IMG/VR virus record: IMGVR_UViG_3300024265_000177
Location: 1 to 27,744 of that record
DNA length: 27,744 bases
Reading direction: 5' to 3' (one strand)
DNA from: a virus
Position numbers and translations under genes: made by a program
Part shown: positions 2,705 to 22,806 of the stretch, piece after piece
Position numbering within the stretch: position 1 is the stretch's first letter
Layout of the letters: each line of letters starts with the position of its first letter
The notes under the pieces: model-generated
What the model saw: the letters and a program-made list of their open reading frames with translations, nothing else
Told to the model about the DNA's origin: nothing
Database searches by the model: none

Positions 2705-3493
2705 TTAAAATATACCCCTTTCTTTAAGGTCCTTTTGATAGGCGTGGAACGAGCCGGCAAAGTAAGTCAGCATGCCCATCTCCAAGCCAAGTTGATCTGC
2801 GAACCAATCCTGCATTAACGCAGCAAGACAGATATCCACAGCGAAGTGTGTAAGGAAGTCACAGGAGCGCATCGTGTAAATCAGATCGACTCTTCCTTTA
2901 CGAACCATGATCTGATAGTACATACTGCAAGGGATTCGACCTCCACCACCTTTGTTAGCCAGGTCAGCGCTACTGTCAACCTGATTGACTGAACGACCGG
3001 GTACAAAAGTAATCTGACCAGCAGCTTCAGGACAGATATTGCTATGGATATTTAGAATACCCTGACGGGACTCAGGATTATGCCTTAGCTCATCCAGGAT
3101 ATCAAATATCTGCGGAGCCAGTCGTTCACTGTAGGTATAGGCGAACTTACCATCGTGCAGAAACTCATCCCATATATTCTTTCGATTTACATAGGCCAGA
3201 CCTGGATTAGTGGCTGTACCAGAAACTCGATCTCTGAGTTCGGCCAGTACATAGGTCAGAACATCTCCGCCCTTCTCTTTGAAGAAGTATTCCATAACTC
3301 GTTTAGCCATCTCTGCATCCCACTTCCAATTGACAAGCTTGAAAGCGTAGCCCTGCATCTCCTTCGTCAAATAATCGGGATCATTCCGAATGTCCTTGTC
3401 CTGCATTGTTTGGGGATGGACCTCGATGCCCATCTCCATGAGGTCTCGTTCGGTTTCCCGAATCGCCTCATATAAATTAGTATAGATCCTCAT
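2705..3493 (-). CDS. Thymidylate-synthase-fold pyrimidine nucleotide C5-transferase, probably dCMP-specific
   Basis: A 262-residue ThyA-superfamily protein. NIWDEF (106-111) matches the TS segment IWDEW. IPCSMYYQ (187-194) holds the catalytic Cys189. The phosphate-binding Arg-Ser is at 209-210. FHAY (249-252) keeps the His and Tyr that contact the sugar. Aligned on RSCD, the Asn of thymidylate synthase that reads uracil (E. coli Asn177) is Asp220 here (AVDI instead of FNI). In T4 dCMP hydroxymethylase this position is Asp, and Asn-to-Asp in L. casei TS switches preference to dCMP; that is established knowledge. The inference is that it adds a hydroxymethyl or methyl group to dCMP. The sequence cannot tell which. 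Its ATG overlaps the stop of the DUF4326 gene, so translation is coupled. Confidence 0.88.
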   Translation of the reverse strand: MRIYTNLYEAIRETERDLMEMGIEVHPQTMQDKDIRNDPDYLTKEMQGYAFKLVNWKWDAEMAKRVMEYFFKEKGGDVLTYVLAELRDRVSGTATNPGLAYVNRKNIWDEFLHDGKFAYTYSERLAPQIFDILDELRHNPESRQGILNIHSNICPEAAGQITFVPGRSVNQVDSSADLANKGGGGRIPCSMYYQIMVRKGRVDLIYTMRSCDFLTHFAVDICLAALMQDWFADQLGLEMGMLTYFAGSFHAYQKDLKERGIF

Positions 3494-5239: not shown

Positions 5240-5589
5240 TTGATCAACTCCTTTCTTATCTCGATAACTTCATCGATACTTTTAGTAATCCCGTCGACCA
5301 ATGAGCTAGCCTCATCATCTCTAGGATCAAATATAGTTTGCAAGTACTTCTTTCCAAGTACCTCCCAAGGTACACTGTACTGTAGAGCTACACTAATCGT
5401 GATAGCAAGTGCGTCTATCAGTCCAGCTATGGTAGAACCTTCCTTGGCGATCTTAATAAAAATCTCACCTGGGTCAGCCGTGTCCTTAAAGAAGTTCACA
5501 GTAGCGTAATACTCCATGTTAGCTACTTGTCCTTTTTGAGTTATACCTACCCGAGTTTTTTCTAGCTTTCTTCTTTGAGCCGTATGCAT
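5236..5589 (-). CDS. Stand-alone TSCPD domain protein (RNR C-terminal domain-like)
   Basis: A 117-residue protein that matches the C-terminal TSCPD region of B12-dependent (class II) ribonucleotide reductases. RRKLEKTR at 6-13 corresponds to the RRKLPxTR entry motif of that region. PGEIFIKIAKEGSTIAGLID (40-59) and SVALQYSVPWEVL follow as in NrdJ-type proteins. The reductase barrel is missing, and no reductase gene is visible in this window. The homology begins right at the first residues, which supports the ATG at 5589 rather than the internal ATG at 5517. It may regulate or assist a host or phage reductase encoded elsewhere. The string STIAGLIDA is part of the RNR match and has no connection with homing endonucleases. 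Confidence 0.82.
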   Translation of the reverse strand: MHTAQRRKLEKTRVGITQKGQVANMEYYATVNFFKDTADPGEIFIKIAKEGSTIAGLIDALAITISVALQYSVPWEVLGKKYLQTIFDPRDDEASSLVDGITKSIDEVIEIRKELIK

Positions 5590-6026
5590 TTTACACTATC
5601 CACTTTCTTTAATCTTTTTAACTCATCTTTTAGTTTTAACCTTGTTTTAAGATTCTTATTCGAGACAGCTTTCTGTTTTGCTTTTTGATTAGCCCCCTTT
5701 CTTTCGCCAGGACCTAAGATCAAGTTAGCCAGTTTTATGATTACTTCTAGCTCTTTTCGTTTTGTCCGAGAGTAGGGTAGCATTAGAAGAGCAAATTCAA
5801 TAACCCTTTCTTTTCCCTCAATATGTAATTGATAGATAGGCTTTGGTCCAACCTTCTGAATTCGACCATAGCCTAAGACATATCTAATATGATAAAGAAC
5901 CTTAGATCTTTTCTGGCTAATAGATAATCTAGGATTGCAATACTTTGAACCTTTTGCACAAGCATTGCCCTCACCATCAAAGAATCCTGCTATGTAAGCA
6001 GCATCAATTTTGGAAACCTTCTTCAT
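5562..6026 (-). CDS. LAGLIDADG homing endonuclease (free-standing, single motif)
   Basis: A 154-residue protein with one LAGLIDADG-type helix, AAYIAGFFDGEGN at residues 9-21. The final Asp/Glu of that helix would coordinate the catalytic metal. ISQKRSKVLYHIRYVLGYGRI follows the usual beta-strand and spacer order (SQK...LxxIxxxLGxG). One motif implies a homodimer cutting a near-palindromic site. The lysine-rich tail (about 110-140) would add DNA contacts. It is not inside a visible intron or intein. It sits between Nmad1 and the TSCPD gene and overlaps them by 4 and 28 bases, so it is embedded in the operon. This looks like a mobile gene that has invaded the nucleotide cluster. Confidence 0.88.
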   Translation of the reverse strand: MKKVSKIDAAYIAGFFDGEGNACAKGSKYCNPRLSISQKRSKVLYHIRYVLGYGRIQKVGPKPIYQLHIEGKERVIEFALLMLPYSRTKRKELEVIIKLANLILGPGERKGANQKAKQKAVSNKNLKTRLKLKDELKRLKKVDSVKCIRLKEES

Positions 6027-6487
6027 TCTGCAAGCCTTTGTGTTAAAAGATATCCTAGAATACAGTAACCAAGGCTGTCTTTGAGTGTGTCCTGCATCGA
6101 TTCATCTCCGAGATCAATCGCATCATCACCCTTGATGTTTTCTATCCGGCCTACCTTAGAAGTCAAGCGAACAAGAATTCCTAGTTCTTTCCAGACCTCC
6201 AGTGGCTTTACTCCATACGCCTTGTGCTTCTTTAACAGGAACTTGGCAAAGGTCATTCGGTTGAAGCGATGGTCAGTCAGTATTTCACTGGTCACAAATC
6301 CGGCTTGTAAGAAAAGAGTTTCCCAGTCTACCACCTCATTGGCTAACACTCTAAGCCGAGCCACATTGATTATGCTCTGCAGCATCTCCAACCATGATTG
6401 GCTTTTGTGCTTCTCGACCTTTGCCTTCTCGATCTGTTGTATGACCCTGAAAACATCACAAGGTTCTTGCATTAATAGTGCTTCCAT
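6023..6487 (-). CDS. Nmad1 / DUF1599 nucleotide-modification-associated protein
   Basis: A 154-residue protein. Its second half fits DUF1599, named nucleotide modification associated domain 1: FLLKKHKAYG (83-92), GILVRLTSKVGRIENI (103-118), then DESMQDTLKDSLGYCILGYL (128-147), which corresponds to the family's ESxxDTLxDLANYA helix. The acidic residues resemble those of all-alpha NTP pyrophosphatases. The family is found in phages with modified bases, but its reaction is not established as far as I know. The ATG at 6487 has AAGGAG seven bases before it. A longer reading frame reaching 6553 would run into the end of the primase gene and is rejected. It strengthens the case for DNA base modification in this phage. 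Confidence 0.75.
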   Translation of the reverse strand: MEALLMQEPCDVFRVIQQIEKAKVEKHKSQSWLEMLQSIINVARLRVLANEVVDWETLFLQAGFVTSEILTDHRFNRMTFAKFLLKKHKAYGVKPLEVWKELGILVRLTSKVGRIENIKGDDAIDLGDESMQDTLKDSLGYCILGYLLTQRLAE

Positions 6488-6497
6488 TTCGTTCTCC

Positions 6498-9332
6498 TTA
6501 CTGTTTAGATAAAGTTTTCTGTCTCTTACGCAGCTGTTTAGTAAAGCCTGCATTTTTTATGTACCAACCGGTACCTTCGATTCTAGCTAAGCATCTGTGC
6601 TGAACCAACTCTCCTATCAAGGATTTGGCAGTGGCAGGATCTCCCACATAGTCGGCCAGAGTATCAGAGTTAATCCGATGCATCTCTAGCAGACCTGTAA
6701 CTGTTGCCAGCTCGTCAGAGCTCAGCATCTTTATACTATTGTTAACTTCCTTAGGTTCGTTAACCTGGGAGGCAGCAGCTGTTGTCTGACTGAACAAGTT
6801 ATAGGCCATACTTGGTTTGTTATAAAATGATTTTAGAATCTCAGTAGCACAGTTAACATGCTTAGAGGTGATGATCAACTTCTCAAAGGATTTGTCTGTA
6901 CTAAAAACTCTAGCCGCAACTGCTGCACTAACCTTGGCTATTTTAATACGTATATTCTCAGCTTGTACTAATGGAATAACTGGAGAGTAGGTATTGCCAA
7001 ATTCTACTGACTTCTCGATTATCTTTGTGGTAGCCTTATCAGTGAAGGTAATCTGACTTGGAGATCTAGACCAAGCCCACAAGATCAAAGCTTGACAAAG
7101 CTCAGCAGGAAATTTATCTTTATCCTTGGTATCGTATATTGCCGGAGCGTTTATAACTTCACTAGGTACCTCGTTCGAAGCTACAGTCAGAACAGCATCA
7201 AACCTACTGACATCCTCTACTGCTCCAATTAGTTCCTTGACGGCCTCAATTCCAGTATTGTAGGTAGCCATCGATCTTCCACTTCGAGGATTAGCCAACC
7301 ATATTATTCGAGTGTTGGCCTGTGTAGTCTCACGGATGATCTTAACTATCTCTGCTACTCCCTCTGACCTAATCCTGCTAAGACGACCAATCTCTTTTGT
7401 CTCAAGGCTCGAGGCTTCATCTATAACGACGAGACGTCTATGGTTGAGAGGAAGTAATCCCCACGTAATCCTCCAGTTGTTTCCTAACTGTTGTAACCCT
7501 CCTACCAATCCAGCAAAGCTACAATTATCACCCGAGGCAATCTCTCCTAGTTTATAATACTTACTGAGTCTCTCGGTGACATATCCTTTACCACAACGAG
7601 TATCTCCCAAGACTAATACGTCCAGCATACCCCTGTGTACAAACTCCTTGTTAAACCAAAAAGACGGAACTGAGTGGAAGGCCAAATCTATCATCATGTG
7701 CAAGTCAGGACGATCGAGTATCTTGGTTATGTTCCGAGACTGCCAATCAGCTATGCTCTGCATCTTAGCCAGGTAACTTATTTTCTTTGGTCTGAATATG
7801 GTCAGCTTCTTACGAAGCTCAGTACTTAGTTCAAAGGTTTCGATCTCGTCCTGGACAGGCTTAGCTTTATCGAATAGGTAAATAACGTGTTGGTCTTTCG
7901 GAGAGTTGGTCATTGATCCTTCAAAGCGGTAAGCCTTGTTAGCTCGTAAACCATGTCCAATATAGTAAGCAGCTCTTACAACATATTCTTTGGACTCAGA
8001 ATCTAAAGTTGGAATAAGCATGACGTGCTCTACGTTAAAGGTCTTGAGGTAATCGACCTTACCTTTACAATTCTGAGTATTAGTAATCCCAATTCGATTT
8101 AGTAATCTTCTTCTGGTAGTATCGTACGGAGTATCTAACATCCGAAGAACAATAGTGTTATCCAACTCTAGGTCATAATCTCTAAATCCTTTATCACTGT
8201 TCGCGATAGGACAATCATCACAGCTATCACTACAACTAACTCTGAACTTTTTGGGCAATAGATAAGGAGCGTGATCTTTTCCGGTGATCAAAGCTTCGAT
8301 TGAGATTCTCTGTCCAAACCAATCTGCTTTACTTGCTTGATCTAAGGAAACTTCTATAGCTTCATCCTGCGGAGTAATTAACTCGTCAGGATTGTCGACT
8401 AAGGTTTTAGCCTTGGCGGTCCATCTTTCCCAGGCTTCTTTTTTACGCATCATAGGTTTCTTGGTAACATAGTCAGTAGTATCTTTACCATACTTCTTGG
8501 GAACTTCCAGCTGTCGTATACTCTTGGCCAGATTTAGAAGTTGTTTACATACTCTCTTGGCTCCCTCTTTACCTGGCTCATCATTGTCGTAGACAATTAT
8601 TACATCTCTTCCCCTGAACAATTCGTTATACTGACTAGGCCAGGTCTTAGCTCCAGAGGATGAGGTGACTGCGTATAAGCCCATACAGAGCAAAACAAAC
8701 ATGTCCCATTCACCTTCACAGATATAGATAGGTTCGTCCTCAGGAGCTTCCATCAAAACCTTCAGAGGATATAACATTGTAGGACTGCCGTATGATCGTG
8801 GTTCATTCTTGGAGGTGAAGTTGATTACCTTGGCTTTGGCTTTTGGATTGCACATCCGGGCACTGACGCATAATCCGAATTCGTTGTAGACAGGCAGTAT
8901 AATCCTATTACCATTCCAGCCAATCTTATGTTGTATGATTTTAGCTTTGGATAAATGCCTTTTGCGAAGATACCGCATAACGCTAGGAGTCTGATATAAC
9001 TTCCTAACCCATTTGCGTATCTGACTATCAGGAATGATGGGATGAATGAACTTGTGAAAAATAGAGCGGGCGGCTTCTCCATCAGAATACTCTTCGTATG
9101 CTGCTTGAAAAGAAACGATGGAGTTGCCGCCCTGTTCGTCCGATGCACAGAAAGAATACCATGCTCCTGTATCTCTGTTAATGGAAAGACTAGGTATTGT
9201 CTCCTCAACGAATGGGGACTTTACTTTTGTCTCGTCACTCCCAGTAGGCCAAGTAATATCAGGAAAAATTGACCGATAGTACTCTTCAGGACTAACATTC
9301 TTTTTTATGTATCTGACTAACGAAGTAATCAT
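6498..9332 (-). CDS. Primase-helicase: Toprim primase fused to MCM-like AAA+ helicase
   Basis: A 944-residue replication protein. At the N-terminus, KSPFVEETIPSLSINRDTGAWYSF (38-61, given in outline) follows the CHC2 primase zinc domain but has lost most zinc ligands. A Toprim domain follows: CEGEWD (E207) and YDNDEPGKEG (D249, D251). Residues 366-510 resemble an OB-fold region with CSDSCDDCP (367-375) as a possible zinc loop. The AAA+ domain has Walker A GDTRCGKG (576-583), Walker B VVIDE (635-639), sensor-1 WLANPRSGR (678-686) and arginine finger SRFD (709-712). The NPxxGR and SRFD signatures point to MCM rather than to DnaB/T7 gp4. The C-terminus (about 870-930) reads as a winged helix, as in MCM proteins. 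It would prime and unwind DNA at the phage fork. Confidence 0.85.
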   Translation of the reverse strand: MITSLVRYIKKNVSPEEYYRSIFPDITWPTGSDETKVKSPFVEETIPSLSINRDTGAWYSFCASDEQGGNSIVSFQAAYEEYSDGEAARSIFHKFIHPIIPDSQIRKWVRKLYQTPSVMRYLRKRHLSKAKIIQHKIGWNGNRIILPVYNEFGLCVSARMCNPKAKAKVINFTSKNEPRSYGSPTMLYPLKVLMEAPEDEPIYICEGEWDMFVLLCMGLYAVTSSSGAKTWPSQYNELFRGRDVIIVYDNDEPGKEGAKRVCKQLLNLAKSIRQLEVPKKYGKDTTDYVTKKPMMRKKEAWERWTAKAKTLVDNPDELITPQDEAIEVSLDQASKADWFGQRISIEALITGKDHAPYLLPKKFRVSCSDSCDDCPIANSDKGFRDYDLELDNTIVLRMLDTPYDTTRRRLLNRIGITNTQNCKGKVDYLKTFNVEHVMLIPTLDSESKEYVVRAAYYIGHGLRANKAYRFEGSMTNSPKDQHVIYLFDKAKPVQDEIETFELSTELRKKLTIFRPKKISYLAKMQSIADWQSRNITKILDRPDLHMMIDLAFHSVPSFWFNKEFVHRGMLDVLVLGDTRCGKGYVTERLSKYYKLGEIASGDNCSFAGLVGGLQQLGNNWRITWGLLPLNHRRLVVIDEASSLETKEIGRLSRIRSEGVAEIVKIIRETTQANTRIIWLANPRSGRSMATYNTGIEAVKELIGAVEDVSRFDAVLTVASNEVPSEVINAPAIYDTKDKDKFPAELCQALILWAWSRSPSQITFTDKATTKIIEKSVEFGNTYSPVIPLVQAENIRIKIAKVSAAVAARVFSTDKSFEKLIITSKHVNCATEILKSFYNKPSMAYNLFSQTTAAASQVNEPKEVNNSIKMLSSDELATVTGLLEMHRINSDTLADYVGDPATAKSLIGELVQHRCLARIEGTGWYIKNAGFTKQLRKRQKTLSKQ

Positions 9333-9335
9333 AGA

Positions 9336-10592
9336 TTAATCTTCCTCTATTGCCGCCTTGATCGCTTTGAGTAAAGCAGCAGGGTTCTTGAACTTACCAC
9401 TCAGACCTGAGTAGTCGCCGATCTCACAAAGTAGTTTGGCCGAGCTGTCGAAGTCGTCAGGAGCAAAGCTGTATTCCTTTGCCAGCTTGTTGGTCTCCTT
9501 AACTTCAGCAGAACTGAGCTTCTTGCTCTTCAGTTCACAGGGAGGAACTTCCTCTTCCTCTTCACCTTCTTCTTCGGCCTCTTCTTCAGCTTCCTCTTCC
9601 TTGAGGTCGTCGATGTCGATTACCTGCTTGTCACCGTCGTCAAACGTGACGTTAGCATTCTCGTCATCGATCTTTGTGATCTTACCGGCGTAGTCCTTAC
9701 CGTCGATATCAACTAAGCAGCGGTCGCCCTTAGCCCAAGCTTCACCTTCTTCTTCGGCCTCTTCCTCTTCGGCCTCTGCTTCAGGTTCTTCCTCGGTCTC
9801 TTCCTCTTCGGCCTCTGCTTCAGGTTCTTCCTCGGTCTCTTCGGCTTCCTCTTCCTTGAGATCGTCCAAGGCAATTTCCTGCTCGTCGCCATCATCAAAC
9901 TTAACGAGGGCGTCATCGTCGCCTTTGAGCTTCTTGATCTTACCAGGATAATCCTTGCCGTCAATGTCTACGACACAACGATCACCTTTAGCCCAGTCCT
10001 CGCCTTCCTCTTCGGATTCGGCTTCGGTCTCTTCGGCATCAGGTTCAACGCTATCCTCAGTAGCCACGGCATCTTCATCGAGTTCATCCTCGACCTCGTC
10101 AGAATCCAAAGCCTTAATGATGCGGCTGTTCTGCTGCTCAACCATGTCACCATCAGAATTCTTTTTCTTCTTAGTTGCCAGACGTACAACAGCGTAGGTA
10201 GGTCCTTCTACCATCTCTTCCAACGTTGCCAACAGTTTCTTCTTGGTGCTTGGCTCTTCGTAACCGAGGCGAGCTAGGCTGCCTTTGAAGTAGGCCAAAG
10301 CATCTTCGGTATTGAGACCCTGATGGATAAAGATATGACGACCTTTATTGTCGCCCGATACAATAATCCATTCCCAAGAGCACTGCAAACGTCCGCTAGA
10401 CTTAGCGTTGTTGATGTTGGCACCAACTAACTTAGAAGGATAGCTGCCGTCGGGAGTTTCGTCGAAGGTATAAGCGTCGACGCCTTCCCAGGATTCTTCA
10501 AACACAGAATCCAGCTGTTCATTTACTGAGCCCAGCCCGTGCTCATCTTTGGCTTTAGCCTTTTTTGACTTTGCGCTTTTTTTTCTTGCCAT
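9336..10592 (-). CDS. Probable single-stranded DNA-binding protein with two Tudor-like repeats
   Basis: A 418-residue protein. Residues about 38-160 (YTFDETPDGSYPSKLVGANI, then SGRLQCSWEWIIVSG and GRHIFIHQGL) resemble DUF669-like phage ssDNA-binding proteins. Two near-identical modules follow, residues 200-245 and 286-331, each starting WAKGDRC and containing DIDGKDYxGKI and KFDDGD/TFDDGD. They read as small Tudor/SH3-like barrels. Strongly acidic linkers join them, one built from a perfect 39-base tandem repeat. The C-terminus is a short acidic helix ending EED, reminiscent of protein-recruiting SSB tails. The N-terminus is lysine-rich. The ATG at 10592 with AAAGGGG upstream is chosen over a start 15 codons earlier. 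It lies beside the Sak4-like gene; Sak4 recombinases work with a partner SSB. Confidence 0.68.
   Translation of the reverse strand: MARKKSAKSKKAKAKDEHGLGSVNEQLDSVFEESWEGVDAYTFDETPDGSYPSKLVGANINNAKSSGRLQCSWEWIIVSGDNKGRHIFIHQGLNTEDALAYFKGSLARLGYEEPSTKKKLLATLEEMVEGPTYAVVRLATKKKKNSDGDMVEQQNSRIIKALDSDEVEDELDEDAVATEDSVEPDAEETEAESEEEGEDWAKGDRCVVDIDGKDYPGKIKKLKGDDDALVKFDDGDEQEIALDDLKEEEAEETEEEPEAEAEEEETEEEPEAEAEEEEAEEEGEAWAKGDRCLVDIDGKDYAGKITKIDDENANVTFDDGDKQVIDIDDLKEEEAEEEAEEEGEEEEEVPPCELKSKKLSSAEVKETNKLAKEYSFAPDDFDSSAKLLCEIGDYSGLSGKFKNPAALLKAIKAAIEED
9761..9838. repeat. Perfect 39-bp tandem duplication in the acidic linker
   Basis: Two adjacent identical 39-base units, 9761-9799 and 9800-9838, encode two copies of a 13-residue acidic unit containing TEEEPEAEAEEE. 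Being perfect at the DNA level, the copy number is probably recent and may vary between strains. Confidence 0.95.
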
Positions 10593-11397
10593 GTTTCTTG
10601 GCCCCTTTCTTAAAAGTTTCGGCGAAAGCTTCGCCATTCAATAATTCAAAACCATCAACTGGTTTTCTACGACCTGTTCTATCTTTAGCATAGATAGATT
10701 CTAAACACTTAGTACGAATAGTGCGGACTTGTTTACGCTTACCTCCTTCCCGCATAATTTTGAATCCGCAGTAACCAACAATATCACAAACTGGAACTAA
10801 CACTTTACTGGCTGACTTACCTATGTCAGGCATTGTACGTTCAGTCTCCATGACCGAAGTCCTAATAGTCGTAATCCGCTCGTGGCAGATAAGCGCTACT
10901 CCAACGTTAATCTTCAACAACCTTTGCAGAATGGTCCAGATACCTTTCTTATAGGCCTTCCAACCCTTGGCGAAACCTACATCGCCCAGAGCTTCAATAC
11001 CTAATTGATCGCAGGTATACTCCTCGACCATAAGACAGATGTCGTTAACATGGTCTAGACAGACAAGGTCGTAAGCAAGAGTACCGGCTTTAAACTCGGA
11101 CTCTAGTTTCTTTACAATCGCATCTAACTGCTCATAGTTATGAGCTTCTAACCTACGAGCTGATAGGTAACGAGTTCCTCGGTCTGTACTGATAAAGAAA
11201 ACTTGATCAGCCAAACTGTCGATGAACATTGTCTTGCCCACACCTGGAGGACCGTACACCATGATGATATGGTCAAAGATGGTCTGAGCTATTACTGACC
11301 TATCTGTTGGTAAGACAATCTCACTTTTTCTTTTGGCCTTTACCTTTACTGCCTTTTTTGACGACTTTGCCTTTGCCTTTTTTCTTTTTGGTGGCAT
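10555..11397 (-). CDS. Sak4-like RecA-fold recombination ATPase
   Basis: A 280-residue P-loop protein. Walker A is GPPGVGKT (49-56) and Walker B is DLVCLDHVND (110-119). Further downstream, NVGVALICHE is a sensor-like strand, as in the AAA_24/Sak4 family of phage single-strand annealing and recombination proteins. The order FFISTDRGTRYLSARR after Walker A also fits that family. It lies between a PD-(D/E)XK nuclease and a probable SSB, the usual partners. Both ends are lysine-rich: MPPKRKKAKAKSSKK at the start and KKHGKKKKRKVKKG at the end. The ATG at 11397 has GGAGGAT upstream. A start 16 codons earlier is rejected because homology and the ribosome site favour the shorter form. Confidence 0.82.
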   Translation of the reverse strand: MPPKRKKAKAKSSKKAVKVKAKRKSEIVLPTDRSVIAQTIFDHIIMVYGPPGVGKTMFIDSLADQVFFISTDRGTRYLSARRLEAHNYEQLDAIVKKLESEFKAGTLAYDLVCLDHVNDICLMVEEYTCDQLGIEALGDVGFAKGWKAYKKGIWTILQRLLKINVGVALICHERITTIRTSVMETERTMPDIGKSASKVLVPVCDIVGYCGFKIMREGGKRKQVRTIRTKCLESIYAKDRTGRRKPVDGFELLNGEAFAETFKKGAKKHGKKKKRKVKKG

Positions 11398-12388
11398 GTT
11401 TTTTATCCTCCGGATTATATTGAGAATATAGTTGACCTGTTCCACGATCTAAACACTCGTTGCAAAGAGGAAAGAATTCACAGGTCTTAAAGAATTCTCC
11501 ACAATTATGATCTGCCTCTGGCCACTCCTGTGGATCAAGAGGATCGTCCATCCTGCTAAGTAACCATTCATACTCAGCATTAGTTGTTTCTAAGCTGTAT
11601 ACGAAGTTAGCTATCTCAGCTTTAGTAAAGGTAAGAGTTTCACGATGGAAGTAGAACTCAGGCCTGTTCATATAGTCTAGCTGTATACGGTCAGAAAAAT
11701 CCTTAAGCGACTCGCTTGACTTTCTCCTCAGCTTACACTTCTTAATCATATTGTAAGTAACCTGCTTAGGATTAAGGTTTAGTCCTCTCCTAGTTCCTAA
11801 CAGATAACTTCGCAGCTGTCCATCCATCGGCAGAGCTTCTATAAAAGCTCCGTCAAGCTTGCTGATGATCTTATGGTCTAGAACTCGTTGTTTACCATCA
11901 ATGATGGGCAGCAGGTCTATCTTACCTCTGTAGTCAAAGGGGCCCATATTAATATCAAACCACGCCTCAACTCCGGTCTTCCTGTTGATCTTCCATTTCT
12001 TTCGGTCACTAGCATAGTTACTAGCGTAGCCCATCAGCATACCCGTGACAGTATCTAATAAGATCATCAGGTTATCGTAGTCATCCTGATTATAGAAACG
12101 AGAGTTACCTTCGATCCTGGCTTTAGTTTCTTTGACGATTCTCGCAGCCACTTTGCTCATTCGTACTTTTGGAAAGCGATACCACAATTCTAGTCCTTCG
12201 TGTCCAGCACTACTGATGACCAACGGAGCGGCTTCTCTTCGAGACCTTAATCTAAACAACTTAGTCCAGAAGAACTTACGCTTACATTTCCTAAAAAGCT
12301 TTTGGGTGGAATATGACCAACCAAATCTCTTAGGAATACGGGGAGGCTTTGGGAATGGATTTTCTACTATTAACAATGAATTTGCCAT
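11321..12388 (-). CDS. PD-(D/E)XK nuclease, Cas4/RecB-like
   Basis: A 355-residue exonuclease of the RecB-nuclease superfamily. WSYSTQKLFRKCKRKFF (24-40) is the entry helix and contains the first candidate iron-sulfur Cys (35). Active-site elements follow: GVEAWF (139-144), YRGKIDLLP (153-161, Asp158), VLDHKI (169-174, Asp171 and Lys173) and QLRSYLLG (191-198). The C-terminal CEFFPLCNEC region supplies three further Cys, the layout of Cas4/AddB 4Fe-4S nucleases. It probably resects DNA ends for the Sak4-like annealase encoded next. The extreme tail is almost pure Lys/Gly and is encoded in 77 bases that also encode the N-terminus of that neighbour. AAAGGAG precedes the ATG. Confidence 0.85.
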   Translation of the reverse strand: MANSLLIVENPFPKPPRIPKRFGWSYSTQKLFRKCKRKFFWTKLFRLRSRREAAPLVISSAGHEGLELWYRFPKVRMSKVAARIVKETKARIEGNSRFYNQDDYDNLMILLDTVTGMLMGYASNYASDRKKWKINRKTGVEAWFDINMGPFDYRGKIDLLPIIDGKQRVLDHKIISKLDGAFIEALPMDGQLRSYLLGTRRGLNLNPKQVTYNMIKKCKLRRKSSESLKDFSDRIQLDYMNRPEFYFHRETLTFTKAEIANFVYSLETTNAEYEWLLSRMDDPLDPQEWPEADHNCGEFFKTCEFFPLCNECLDRGTGQLYSQYNPEDKKHATKKKKGKGKVVKKGSKGKGQKKK

Positions 12389-12440: not shown

Positions 12441-13859
12441 TCATTTGTAAGCTGTCAAATTGAGAATGCGAGAAAGCGAATCTCCCATGTTAATCCTGGC
12501 CGTTATATAGTCAGCCAGGGAGATATTCTGCATGAGAGCTTCTAATATAGTAATATCGATAGAATCTTCTGAGACAAAATCCCAGTAAGTTATACACTCA
12601 AATCCTTCTGAACCTTTCCGACGTATTCTCTTTTCAGATTGCTGACGCGATACCACTCTAGAAGAGTTAGAGAAGTATACTGCCGTATCAGCTACGACTA
12701 ACTCGTTCATTCCAACTCCAGCATCTACCTGTCCAACGAATAGCTTAACAGATTTATCTTCAGCAAATCTTTCACGAGCTTCAATCTTTTGGTCAGGATC
12801 TAATCTACCACTGAATGTGACTGATTTGATACCCAGGTTCTTAGCTTCCGAAGCTATCTTAAAAATCTCAGCAGTATGAGCACACCATATAACAAGCTTC
12901 TCTTTGTTTTTGAAATAGTCTTCTGAGACAAGAAACTCTTTCAGCAAATCTAGCTTAGGAGACTTCATCCAAATAGGTCTATGATTTTCATCGTAGATAA
13001 AACCTGAAGCGATCTGTCTATACTTAATGCACTGCGATATTACCTGATTAAGTTCTATGATGGGTCTACCAGGGATTACCACATCAAAGTCTGACATGAT
13101 CTTTCTATACAGGTGTCGCTGCTGTCCAGACATCCGAACTGATTTAGTCAATCGACGAACAGGAGGAAGGTTAAGTACGTCATCCTCATGAACGTAGAAG
13201 GACATCCTACTAAGTTTACTAGCGATAAGATCCTTGGCGTTATGCTTCAGATACCATCCAGGACCTGATTGGATATAATATCTCTTTTTAAACTTCCACC
13301 AGTTGTTACCGAACGTTCTACCATTATCTACGAATAAGGACTGCGTGTAAACGTCGCCAGGAGTATTTGTGATAGGCGTTCCTGTCATAGCTATTCTATG
13401 AGGGATATGCCTAGTAGCTGCTATCACCTTTTTAGTTCGCTTAGCTTTCCACCTTTTAATAGTATGCGATTCATCAGCGGCAGTAACCTTCCAGAGCATG
13501 CTCCTAATCCAACGGAAGATCCTGGCATTCCTAACCTGTCCGTATGTTATGATCGCCCAGCGTGGATCAAGAGGCAGTTCCTGTCTAGTATTCTGTAGTG
13601 CGAATACCTCACTTCCAGGAACTCCTTCTAGGGCTAACTCTTTCTGCCAAGTAAAGTAATCATCTCTCCTGCAGATTATCAGGGCAGGTAAACGGAATCT
13701 AGCATATCTGGCAACCACTAAGGTCTTACCAGTTCCGCAAGCCATGTACAGACCGACACAACCATTCATCTTTTTTAAGAAGTTAGTAGCCCTTACCTGA
13801 TGAGGCATAAACTTTCTAAACGGATGTACTCTTCTAACCTGTACTTGCTGTACTGTCAT
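12441..13859 (-). CDS. SNF2/superfamily 2 helicase
   Basis: A 472-residue ATP-dependent DNA translocase. In order: a Q-like start MPHQVRATNFL (18-28), motif I MACGTGKT (39-46), motif Ia ALIICRRD, motif II ADESH (128-132), motif III IAMTGTPITNTP (156-167), and a second RecA domain with LVIWCAHT, TFSGRLD, LFVGQVDAGVGMNE (motif V) and SRQQSEKRIRRKG (motif VI with both arginines). It matches the phage SNF2-like helicases found with Sak4 and PD-(D/E)XK genes, so replication fork remodelling or recombination is the likely role. It overlaps the upstream gene by four bases (ATGA). A 52-base A+T-rich gap separates it from the nuclease gene downstream. Confidence 0.92.
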   Translation of the reverse strand: MTVQQVQVRRVHPFRKFMPHQVRATNFLKKMNGCVGLYMACGTGKTLVVARYARFRLPALIICRRDDYFTWQKELALEGVPGSEVFALQNTRQELPLDPRWAIITYGQVRNARIFRWIRSMLWKVTAADESHTIKRWKAKRTKKVIAATRHIPHRIAMTGTPITNTPGDVYTQSLFVDNGRTFGNNWWKFKKRYYIQSGPGWYLKHNAKDLIASKLSRMSFYVHEDDVLNLPPVRRLTKSVRMSGQQRHLYRKIMSDFDVVIPGRPIIELNQVISQCIKYRQIASGFIYDENHRPIWMKSPKLDLLKEFLVSEDYFKNKEKLVIWCAHTAEIFKIASEAKNLGIKSVTFSGRLDPDQKIEARERFAEDKSVKLFVGQVDAGVGMNELVVADTAVYFSNSSRVVSRQQSEKRIRRKGSEGFECITYWDFVSEDSIDITILEALMQNISLADYITARINMGDSLSRILNLTAYK

Positions 13860-15329: not shown

Positions 15330-15799
15330 TCGTCATAATCCTCAAGAACTTTACCTGTAGCATGTTTCCAGTAGTCGTCGATTAACTCGTTAGACAGTCC
15401 TGGCAGACCTACCAATTCTCTGGGGTCATCAGTGTCCCTAGCTATCAGAGCGTTGATAACCTTAATATGCTGGATCTTCTTAGGAGGAGACCACTTATCA
15501 GTAAGCCTATACTTGAGAGGGAATAGCACGAACTTCTCCAAGTGATACCGAACACCTCCGACTGAGTAACCAAACTTAGCTACCAGATCTCTAGTCGTGG
15601 TATCGTAGGTATAAGCTCTAGCTACATCGAAAGAAAAATCGTTGGCTGTAACTTCAAAGGATGCCAGCTTATATTTCTTCATGTAGTTATGGACCGTAGC
15701 TTCAGTTACCTTAAGGAGGAAAGCCATCCTCTTTATTGAATCTGCTTTTCCATGAGCCTTAACAATAGCACTCTTTACATGTATTGATTTTCTTCCCAT
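15326..15799 (-). CDS. Helix-turn-helix protein, function unknown
   Basis: A 157-residue protein. IKRMAFLLKVTEATVHNYMK (about 22-41) reads as a helix-turn-helix. A second possible one is DLVAKFGYSVGGVRYHLEKF (71-90). Together they suggest sequence-specific DNA binding, for example as a phage regulator. No known family is recognised. It overlaps the SLOG gene by four bases and touches the NADAR gene, so the three genes form one translational unit. Confidence 0.65.
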   Translation of the reverse strand: MGRKSIHVKSAIVKAHGKADSIKRMAFLLKVTEATVHNYMKKYKLASFEVTANDFSFDVARAYTYDTTTRDLVAKFGYSVGGVRYHLEKFVLFPLKYRLTDKWSPPKKIQHIKVINALIARDTDDPRELVGLPGLSNELIDDYWKHATGKVLEDYDE

Positions 15800-16245
15800 T
15801 ATAACGTTCTCCTAACTCTCATTAAAATTCTGCCCAGCATATTGTGGGCTTGTACATCTTTACATTTAGGACAAGTACATCTGCCCCAATAGTTATCGTG
15901 CCAATAATTACCTTCGATTAAGATCGCGTTCCCTGTCGCCTTAAGTTCCTTGGCCAGATGTGAATTCTGTTTGAACTTAGCCATAACAACTAAGAGCATG
16001 ATCATATCCTTGACCTCCTCCCAGTCAGGGCGTAGATCCACCTCTTGTCCTATCCTCTTAGCTTTGTCAGGGAATGGCGTCTTCCTTATCTGATACTTAT
16101 CGCTAGGGTTGTCTGTCTTAAGCGCCTGGTACAGATGCTCAGCTGTGCGATAGTATTCTCCTTGATGGAAGATACCACTCTCTGCAAAATTACTGAGAAA
16201 CCTATAGTGATTCTTGAAGATAGTTATTTTCTTATACTTCCCCAT
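15799..16245 (-). CDS. NADAR family protein (YbiA/RibX-like N-glycosidase)
   Basis: A 148-residue protein with the NADAR/YbiA layout. FLSNFAESG (16-24) is followed by YYRTAEHLYQALKT (31-44), then NAILIEGNYWHDNYWGRC (about 106-123), CPKCKD and HNMLGRILMRVR near the end. Members of this family cleave N-glycosidic bonds in riboflavin intermediates. Others remove ADP-ribose from guanine, including in DNA. A phage copy could undo host ADP-ribosylation or handle NAD-derived molecules, but the sequence alone does not decide. The CTCPKC pair of Cys after the WGRC motif is common in this family. Confidence 0.88.
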   Translation of the reverse strand: MGKYKKITIFKNHYRFLSNFAESGIFHQGEYYRTAEHLYQALKTDNPSDKYQIRKTPFPDKAKRIGQEVDLRPDWEEVKDMIMLLVVMAKFKQNSHLAKELKATGNAILIEGNYWHDNYWGRCTCPKCKDVQAHNMLGRILMRVRRTL

Positions 16246-18095: not shown

Positions 18096-18196
18096 TATCG
18101 TGTACCTCCTGGAGGTTTGCCGAAACGAATTCTTAAATATATTGCACCGAGCAATAAAAAGAACCGTAATCGTAGTATCATTAACTTTCTAAGCAT
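18095..18196 (-). CDS. Very small hydrophobic peptide gene
   Basis: A 33-residue reading frame: a short basic start, hydrophobic LRFFLLLGAIYL, then a basic, glycine-rich end KPPGGTR. It begins with TAATG overlapping the lysine-rich gene upstream and ends with TAATG overlapping the next gene. These exact junctions on both sides are the main evidence that it is translated. It may be a small membrane peptide. It may also serve mainly to carry the GGAGGT ribosome site of the next gene. Confidence 0.45.
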   Translation of the reverse strand: MLRKLMILRLRFFLLLGAIYLRIRFGKPPGGTR

Positions 18197-18636
18197 TATC
18201 GAGTGCCACCGCTATGTCCTAATTTTCTTAACTGCCTGCGGAGCTTACGTTTCTCCGCCGGATCTGTTTCTTTCTTTAGCTTCTTGGTTAGGTTACTAAC
18301 CTGGGCATTCTCTTGGTCTCTGATATTCAGGACCTTCTTTTTAGAGTACTTCTTCTTCTTAGAATAGGTCTTCTTCTTGGACTTGACCTTCTTCTCCTTT
18401 TTAGGAGTAGGCATCTTGATACCAAATAGGTCGGCTAGCTCTACAAGGTCTGAGGTTCCGAATAGGTATTCTCTTAGCTCATCCAGTTTCTCAACCATCA
18501 TCTCGACAGTATTGGCATACGTGTCTTTTGGCATGACGCCCATCCGAGCTGCCACCTCTGCTCTGGCATGTTCTTCCACTAGTTTATACAACCATTGGAA
18601 GTCACGCGTCTTCATTGTCTTAGGATCTCGTTTCAT
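18196..18636 (-). CDS. Lysine-rich hypothetical protein
   Basis: A 146-residue protein. The N-terminal half (about 1-75) is a helical, mixed-charge domain including TVEMMVEKLDELREYLFG. The second half is very basic: KKEKKVKSKKKTYSKKKKYS (about 79-98), then KKLKKETDPAEKRKLRRQLR. The YSKKKKYSKK pattern resembles the lysine-rich tags of the small terminase and resolvase in this window. DNA or RNA binding is likely; the family is not recognised. It ends GGTR like the small peptide after it. Confidence 0.6.
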   Translation of the reverse strand: MKRDPKTMKTRDFQWLYKLVEEHARAEVAARMGVMPKDTYANTVEMMVEKLDELREYLFGTSDLVELADLFGIKMPTPKKEKKVKSKKKTYSKKKKYSKKKVLNIRDQENAQVSNLTKKLKKETDPAEKRKLRRQLRKLGHSGGTR

Positions 18637-21652: not shown

Positions 21653-22201
21653 ATGCCACCTAAATATAAGAAAAAGAAACAAGTAATTAAAAAGCTACTA
21701 GCCATAGATCCTGGTACTGAAAACCTAGGATGGGCCATATTTAACGTAGCAGGTAGATTGCATAACAAAGGAGCACAGCTTGCTGTCCGAGAATACAAGT
21801 ATATGGATAGTGGAGTATTTCAGATAAAGAATAAATCCCTTGACTGGATGCAACGTATGGACTTGCTCCTTATAGATGTCCAGAAGATACTCCAGGATAT
21901 ACCTATTGACGTAGTAGTAATTGAGGAACCTGCGATCTTTATAGGTACTGCAAAAGGAGAAGGTGCAAACAACTCAGGGTCTGTCCTGAAGCTTACTGCA
22001 GTAGTGCATAGTATAAGGTCAATGGCGAAAAGGATGGGTTGCAAAGTACACCTATTGGGGGTACGTAAATGGAAAGGGAACACTAAGAAGGAAGACACCC
22101 AACGTCGTATTAACAGAAGCTTTGGTATAAACATCACTCAGCCCGATCAAGCTGATGCAGTAGGAGTAGGCCGATATTTCCTGATGAATCTCAACAAGTA
22201 A
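21653..22201 (+). CDS. RuvC-like Holliday junction resolvase
   Basis: A 182-residue RNase H-fold nuclease. LLAIDPGTENLGWAIF (15-30) carries the first catalytic Asp (19). VVVIEEPAIF (87-96) supplies the central Glu, and QPDQADAVGVGRYFL (163-177) the C-terminal acidic pair, as in RuvC-type phage resolvases. It would resolve branched DNA before packaging. The 14 residues before the domain are a lysine-rich tag, MPPKYKKKKQVIKK, almost repeated on the small terminase. AGGAG lies eight bases upstream of the ATG. It is the first gene of the rightward arm. Confidence 0.88.
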   Translation: MPPKYKKKKQVIKKLLAIDPGTENLGWAIFNVAGRLHNKGAQLAVREYKYMDSGVFQIKNKSLDWMQRMDLLLIDVQKILQDIPIDVVVIEEPAIFIGTAKGEGANNSGSVLKLTAVVHSIRSMAKRMGCKVHLLGVRKWKGNTKKEDTQRRINRSFGINITQPDQADAVGVGRYFLMNLNK

Positions 22202-22392: not shown

Positions 22393-22410
22393 TTGTTAGG
22401 GTATCGGGAT

Positions 22411-22806
22411 ATGCCTCCTAAGTATAAGTCAAAAAGAAAATATAGCAAGAAGGCCAAATTCAAGAAGGAAGTACTAACAGATAGTACTCCAGCAAGGGAT
22501 GATAAAGGCCATCTTCTCCCAGGACATACTGCCAATCGCAATGGTCGTCCTAAGGGGAGTAAGAACAAGTATTCCATAAAGGAATTAATGGATGCTATCA
22601 AAGAGGTCGAACTTGAGACAGGTGAATCCTTACTCAAGGTCTTTGTTATGAAGGGATATGCAGATAAAACAGTAATGATCGCTTTAATGAAGAAATTACT
22701 TCCTGACCTTAAATCGATCGAAGGAGTTATGGCGAATTTCGAAGCATCTATGGAAGACGAAGTTGCAAAGAGCATACAAGAGGAATTATTGCAGAGGTAT
22801 AAATAG
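22411..22806 (+). CDS. Small terminase subunit-like DNA-binding protein
   Basis: A 131-residue protein. The N-terminus is a lysine-rich tag (MPPKYKSKRKYSKKAKFKK). GHTANRNGRPKGSKNKYSIK (38-57) is the NxxGRPKGSKNK block common at the start of small-terminase-like and DUF5681-type proteins. A helical remainder (LMDAIKEVELETGESLLKVF and LMKKLLPDLKSIEG) follows. Such proteins recognise phage DNA and hand it to the large subunit. Placement a few genes before the large terminase supports the call; the sequence match alone is moderate. A TTG six codons upstream is an alternative start, directly after the leader peptide stop. Confidence 0.65.
   Translation: MPPKYKSKRKYSKKAKFKKEVLTDSTPARDDKGHLLPGHTANRNGRPKGSKNKYSIKELMDAIKEVELETGESLLKVFVMKGYADKTVMIALMKKLLPDLKSIEGVMANFEASMEDEVAKSIQEELLQRYK

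Follow-up and report, generated by a model that had tools for sequence, protein, structure and literature searches.

T7 gp4, the well-studied case, combines a Toprim primase with a lagging-strand RecA-type ring; passages of PMC12593628 describe the lagging strand as threaded through this ring, call gp4 unique for holding both activities in a single polypeptide, and have CMG travelling 3'-5' on the leading strand, N-tier first. MCM helicases are already known from phages (PMC5862659), where the described ones carry archaeo-eukaryotic primases (AEPs); parts of PMC4538821 describe such AEP-MCM fusions in Bacillus prophages, among them BcMCM of a B. cereus prophage, a 3'-5' helicase. Proteins that join a Toprim primase to MCM are already in public databases as a phage family, and it is the fusion itself for which we found no description in the open-licence literature. 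One candidate for an earlier description, Zblingviridae (PMC11267871), was set aside because the 'MCM' that matched there belongs to an author's name.

The window analyzed here is a stretch of viral DNA of 27,744 nucleotides (IMG/VR record IMGVR_UViG_3300024265_000177). To judge from its sequence and predicted structure, the product of its gene at 6498-9332 is almost certainly a DnaG-type Toprim primase (residues 1-313) followed by a complete MCM subunit (residues 320-926). An earlier note on this DNA had proposed a Toprim primase and an MCM-type AAA+ helicase in one chain, as is borne out by Pfam, PDB sequence searches, hhalign and AlphaFold2 models; it had also called the combination unusual, which is apt against textbook phages, but not for a widespread phage family with AEP-MCM fusions already known (PMC4538821). 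The gene and its parts are as follows:

6498-9332, minus strand: Toprim-MCM primase-helicase gene, 944 aa, ATG start
9048-9332, minus strand: CHC2-type primase zinc-ribbon domain, residues 1-95; fold kept, most ligands gone (S39, V42, S60)
8394-9047, minus strand: DnaG/gp4-type RNA polymerase domain with Toprim, residues 96-313 (E206, E208, D249, D251, K168)
7833-8375, minus strand: MCM N-terminal OB-type tier, residues 320-500; structure match from model residue 320-322 on, and model strands
8067-8234, minus strand: second conserved Cys set, residues 367-422 (C367, C371, C374, C422), from column conservation
7143-7775, minus strand: MCM AAA+ module, residues 520-730, from Pfam MCM (562-718), structure matches and hhalign
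7584-7607, minus strand: Walker A GDTRCGKG, residues 576-583; final residue Gly, not Ser/Thr
7461-7502, minus strand: helix-2-insert beta-hairpin, residues 611-624 (611-616/619-624), from the AlphaFold2 model
7416-7433, minus strand: Walker B LVVIDE, residues 634-639, from the 60-sequence alignment
7320-7358, minus strand: presensor-1 beta-hairpin, residues 659-671 (659-663/667-671), Lys664 at the tip, from the model
7275-7292, minus strand: sensor 1 NPRSGR, residues 681-686; N and P in 60/60
7197-7208, minus strand: SRFD arginine finger, residues 709-712; R and D invariant, in part because the scan demanded the motif
6555-6713, minus strand: C-terminal winged helix, about residues 874-926, from the model; hhalign to archaeal MCM extends to residue 926

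Domain identity of the two halves

In the helicase half, Pfam recognizes MCM (PF00493) over residues 562-718 (33.9 bits, cut-off 23.3, E 2.2e-8), PHROGs assigns residues 322-858 to a family of 'unknown function' (phrog_18685, E 3.5e-70), and phmmer against the PDB reaches MCM2 at E 8.6e-6. In a PDB profile search (best 60 of 75 matches), the helicase region finds only MCM and the primase region only DnaG and T7 gp4, the latter over its primase part only. When the family is aligned by hhalign to six archaeal and archaeal-virus MCMs, the match (99.2%, E 1.8e-19) spans residues 459-926, from the end of the N-tier through the winged helix. The AlphaFold2 model of the full protein, built from 60 aligned sequences, has a mean pLDDT of 90.8 and a pTM of 0.65, so that where the primase sits with respect to the ring is poorly predicted; searched with it against the PDB, Foldseek (rank 1, E 1.8e-23) and VIA-align (top 6mii_E, Z 30.7, rmsd 6.2 over 463 residues, 15% identity, model residues 322-851) each list 50 matches, all of them MCM chains. 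Among the matches listed by VIA-align, solved MCMs share 13-18% identity at an rmsd of 3-8 Å, which makes the geometry between the tiers uncertain.

A best match to MCM rather than to D5/SF3, DUF927 or RecA-type helicases had been anticipated by the earlier note, together with a presensor insert; the former is what both structure searches return, and the latter is present as the hairpin at 659-663/667-671. Indeed, the model has both hairpins that are inserts of the MCM clade, helix-2 and presensor-1 (residue 664 is K in 45/60 sequences), and the winged helix expected of MCM is found by model and hhalign alike. The MCM N-terminal OB/zinc tier (residues 320-500), absent from that first description, is also in the protein; its cysteines C367, C371, C374 and C422 are Cys in 57, 58, 57 and 58 of the 60 rows, respectively, and by this conservation likely mark a putative MCM-NTD zinc site.

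That the motor is instead a D5/SF3, DUF927, DUF3987 or RecA-type helicase with a superficial likeness to MCM is hardly credible: it could draw on weak BFVD matches (E 1e-8 to 1e-7) to a DUF3987 protein (E 1.3e-8) and MoxR-like proteins, but these are far weaker than the PDB matches to MCM, and the structure and hhalign matches to MCM cover N-tier, motor and winged helix. D5/SF3, DUF927, DUF3987, VapE and DnaB_C were all rejected as readings, since Pfam gives no match to any of them in the protein at E 1 and no such chain is among the PDB matches listed.

In the primase half, Pfam recognizes Toprim_2 over residues 203-288 (31.7 bits, cut-off 22.1, E 2e-7), with the CHC2 zinc finger below cut-off (12.5 vs 24.9); PHROGs returns primase families for the N-terminal half, and phmmer against the PDB finds DnaG weakly (E 0.006). 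For residues 1-318 modeled on their own (pLDDT 95.5), the match to Aquifex primase runs the full length (Z 20.5), at an rmsd of 13.3 that presumably reflects domain orientation; further matches are B. subtilis DnaG at Z 19.7 and T7 gp4 at Z 18.6, and Twinkle is also among them. The RNA polymerase part has the fold of DnaG and gp4 (Z 16-20), and the zinc ribbon (residues 1-95) matches the DnaG zinc-binding domain 1d0q_A at Z 10.2. The AEP primase domain PF01896, which is present in L103 and L104, was not found in the protein by Pfam.

Relatives and primase exchange

By tblastn, 206 of 50,697 phage records match the protein. Query coverage reaches 80% or more in 45, and all of these stay below 60% identity; the well-covered relatives comprise Bacillus BSP7/BSTP phages, the Microbacterium Krampus group, Weizmannia Youna2, a Manatee Spring metagenome phage, and others. 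The majority of the weaker matches listed cover the primase half only; the helicase half alone, used as query, finds 50 phage records. Relatives are encoded in 308 of 364 scanned IMG/VR stretches, the best 80 of which were carried forward, and in 2 of 114 GTDB genomes. In seven scanned relatives Pfam finds MCM over cut-off four times and Toprim_2 five times; at E 0.01, PF00493 matches all ten relative records (six over cut-off), but these record matches prove little by themselves because all 14 control genomes, bacteria included, match too. The 96% identical relative, carried by the 56.8-kb record G001, is the gene of L001/L011 (one contig); a singleton or an assembly artefact is ruled out by it and the many others. 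Its reading frame is broken near residue 651-661, so that L001 (6001-8840) has two overlapping ORFs of 661 and 288 aa in place of one gene; the break was left uncorrected. Against L011, dN/dS across the first 651 codons is 0.034, which shows purifying selection on the gene. Public records label these proteins mostly 'DNA primase' or 'DNA primase/helicase' (among the matches listed). Many stop at 'DNA primase', and PHROGs has 'unknown function' for the helicase half, which in this large family now gains a name.

The helicase half of the window protein also finds gp46 of Bacillus phage vB_BboS-125 (E 1e-58 over 98%) and a protein of the B. velezensis plasmid p3 (E 1e-53 over 86%); in both, the front half contains PF01896 (archaeo-eukaryotic primase) and the PriL-like PF04104. 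In the reverse search, the helicase half of vB_BboS-125 finds BSP7 at E 1e-59, and haloarchaeal virus MCMs at E 1e-6 at best; because it thus favors Toprim-MCM phages far above haloarchaeal virus MCMs, Toprim-MCMs and AEP-MCMs are, on this comparison of sequences, one phage MCM lineage paired with two unrelated primases. Quick trees, in which AEP-MCMs are sampled by one lineage (three rows, BcMCM left out), nest them within the Toprim-MCMs (SH-aLRT 99 and 95); by an AU test, a single Toprim-MCM clade remains acceptable (p 0.647), and a primase exchange is therefore claimed without direction.

Catalytic residues and clade-specific losses

Across the 60 aligned sequences, G207, E208, D249, D251, K582, E639, N681 and P682 are invariant, as are E706, D707, R710 and D712; the invariance of these four comes in part from the collection scan, which had their motif as a requirement. 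The window protein has the Toprim EGE motif (206-208) together with D249 and D251; the two aspartates were correctly named in the earlier note, whose 'E207' is off by one (Glu occupies 206 and 208, Gly 207), and the Walker A, Walker B, NPxxGR sensor, SRFD finger and winged-helix-like end that it listed were all located in the protein. E206, which corresponds to the Glu in the EG motif of DnaG-type primases, is E in 49/60 sequences and A or G in the other 11, the window not among them; since E208 is never lost, this suggests that E208 can act as metal ligand. The A/G substitutions occur in L040, L042, L043, L046, L049, L054, L063, L069, L072, L077 and L083, and fall into several clades.

The zinc domain is degraded, as had been noticed from the sequence at the outset: the CHC2 ligand columns C39, H42 and C60 are each kept in 54/60 sequences; in the window these positions are S39, V42 and S60. 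The ligands are lost in the window clade (five rows) and separately in L024; they are also missing from Twinkle-like relatives. With two such losses, E206 missing in 11 relatives and Twinkle among the structural matches, the Toprim half in the window's clade might make no primers and act as an arm with a structural or DNA-binding function, like that of metazoan Twinkle, primers coming from host DnaG or transcripts; however, the window keeps E206, E208, D249, D251 and K168, with E208 and both aspartates in 60/60 sequences, and the Toprim part has a dN/dS of 0.053 against L011. We consider such an arm unlikely; by its retained residues, the primase is probably active in this clade.

Walker A ends in S in 34, T in 16 and G in 10 of the 60 sequences. 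The ten GKG rows form a single clade (SH-aLRT 99) and GKG occurs nowhere else among the 60; the clade comprises the window (7584-7607, minus strand), L002, L003, L010, L012, L014, L017, L020, L034 and L088. The Ser/Thr at this position is the usual holder of Mg, a general P-loop trait that is not specific to MCM, and we read the Gly as a clade-specific loss, one that makes a normal ATPase less certain and leaves the kinship with MCM untouched. Its presence in all ten rows could also mean that the ATPase of this clade is weak or regulatory, the ring not being the main unwinding motor there; this is improbable, as K582, D638-E639, N681, R710 and R795 are retained, constraint is strongest in the covered AAA+ part (dN/dS 0.019 over 132 codons), and the G001 record, with its 96% identical gene, has no DnaB_C match.

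Replication module and predicted fork

The gene starts 3 bases beyond the end of an SSB-like gene, with AGAGGAAG directly upstream, and lies on the same strand as its neighbors, in the order SNF2 helicase, PD-(D/E)XK exonuclease, Sak4, SSB-like protein and Toprim-MCM:

12441-13859, minus strand: SNF2-type helicase, from Pfam and PHROGs; same replication module
11321-12388, minus strand: PD-(D/E)XK (Cas4-like) exonuclease, from Pfam and PHROGs; same module
10555-11445, minus strand: Sak4-like recombinase ATPase (PHROG 124, E 3.1e-39); same module
9336-10637, minus strand: SSB-like protein with acidic tail (weak DUF669); same module
6023-6487, minus strand: gene coupled to the Toprim-MCM stop (TAAGGAGAACGAAATG); weak PHROG 1485

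Single-sequence phmmer searches of the 51 loci with at least 6.5 kb upstream find the SNF2 gene near 37 relatives, the exonuclease near 13, Sak4 near 13 and the SSB-like gene near 10, the three lower counts possibly owing to sequence divergence; isolate phages have a comparable gene order by annotation. A short way downstream of the Toprim-MCM gene, on the same strand, lie nucleotide-supply genes.

Several further features of the window were observed. The long acidic tail of the SSB-like protein is accompanied by two Tudor-like repeats (weak Pfam matches). A free-standing LAGLIDADG/HNH-type endonuclease gene (5562-6026, minus strand) lies two genes past the primase-helicase. The gene for ThyX adjoins one for a thymidylate synthase of the ThyA type, or for a hydroxymethylase-like enzyme (1698-2702 and 2705-3493, minus strand), beside a deaminase gene, a cluster that may point to modified bases. 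A basic N-terminal tag, MPPK[YR]K, recurs in three unrelated ORFs (22393-22806, plus strand; the RuvC-like 21653-22201, plus strand; the Sak4-like 10555-11445, minus strand), and a peptide around 'LRK[LM]GHxGG', with basic EKR/ERR residues ahead of it, recurs at the end of or within several proteins that are unrelated to one another, a Mu-F-like head protein included (window 18196-18636, minus strand; L101 4626-5039, 5011-6303 and 6570-7556, plus strand; L102 16290-17864, minus strand). The protein at 15799-16245 (minus strand) belongs to the NADAR family (NCBIfam TIGR02464 over cut-off, with a weaker match to the anti-phage NADAR model). The window has no tRNA and no Rfam match.

None of ten relative records, G001 included, has a DnaB_C match; seven, G001 among them, have a family A polymerase, which was not found in the other three, and Krampus and Wollypog have genes annotated as DnaE-like. 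From G001, the window's own polymerase would be expected at or past its left end. With DnaB_C lacking in these ten records, family A polymerase in seven and the module conserved, a replicative role is very likely. The Sak4, exonuclease and SNF2 genes of the operon could point instead to recombination or origin opening, with the helicase of the moving fork supplied by the host; against this stand the primase fusion, the phage polymerase genes in most relatives and the nucleotide-supply genes a short way downstream on the same strand, and we regard it as quite improbable.

As an overall explanation, the protein is thus likely the single-chain replicative primase-helicase of a tailed phage. Because of its kinship with BcMCM (3'-5') and CMG (3'-5', NTD first), its polarity would, by analogy, probably be 3'-5'. 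Six chains would form an MCM-type ring around one strand and, driven by ATP hydrolysis, move 3'-5' on the leading-strand template, the N-tier leading as in CMG. Archaeal MCMs carry domain A on the N-tier; here, six Toprim domains would hang off this tier and, given the inferred polarity, sit at the front of the ring close to the excluded lagging strand, which they would prime. The primers would be extended by the family A phage polymerase, and three other products of the operon (SSB-like protein, Sak4 and exonuclease) would assist fork and recombination. We offer only tentatively, at somewhat short of even chances, the whole combination of a Toprim primase on the ring front, a eukaryote-like fork geometry, MCM as a platform for exchangeable primases (Toprim, AEP), and one clade with a Walker A that lacks the Mg-binding hydroxyl.

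Set beside known systems, archaeal and archaeal-virus MCMs have N-tier, AAA+ and winged helix as in the phage protein, but carry no primase in the six aligned and are separated from phage MCMs by a long branch. The AEP-MCMs gp46 of vB_BboS-125 and the plasmid p3 protein share the MCM half, N-tier cysteines C367, C374 and C422 included; in these, as in BcMCM, the primase is archaeo-eukaryotic, not Toprim. BSP7/BSTP, the Krampus group, Wollypog, Youna2, API480 and ctIqW946 have the same architecture and belong to the same family (23-30% identity in the five aligned), but have Ser/Thr in Walker A and mostly keep the primase zinc ligands; the family's cultured hosts include Bacillus subtilis and Microbacterium foliorum. 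T7 gp4 and Twinkle likewise join an N-terminal Toprim primase to a ring helicase in a single chain, but their helicase has the RecA fold and here the same type of primase is tied to an MCM AAA+ helicase, whose relatives run on the opposite strand and in the opposite direction to the gp4 ring. The Toprim-MCMs thus allow one to ask which of the two, helicase or primase, dictates fork geometry; the geometry predicted for them is the mirror image of that of T7 gp4.
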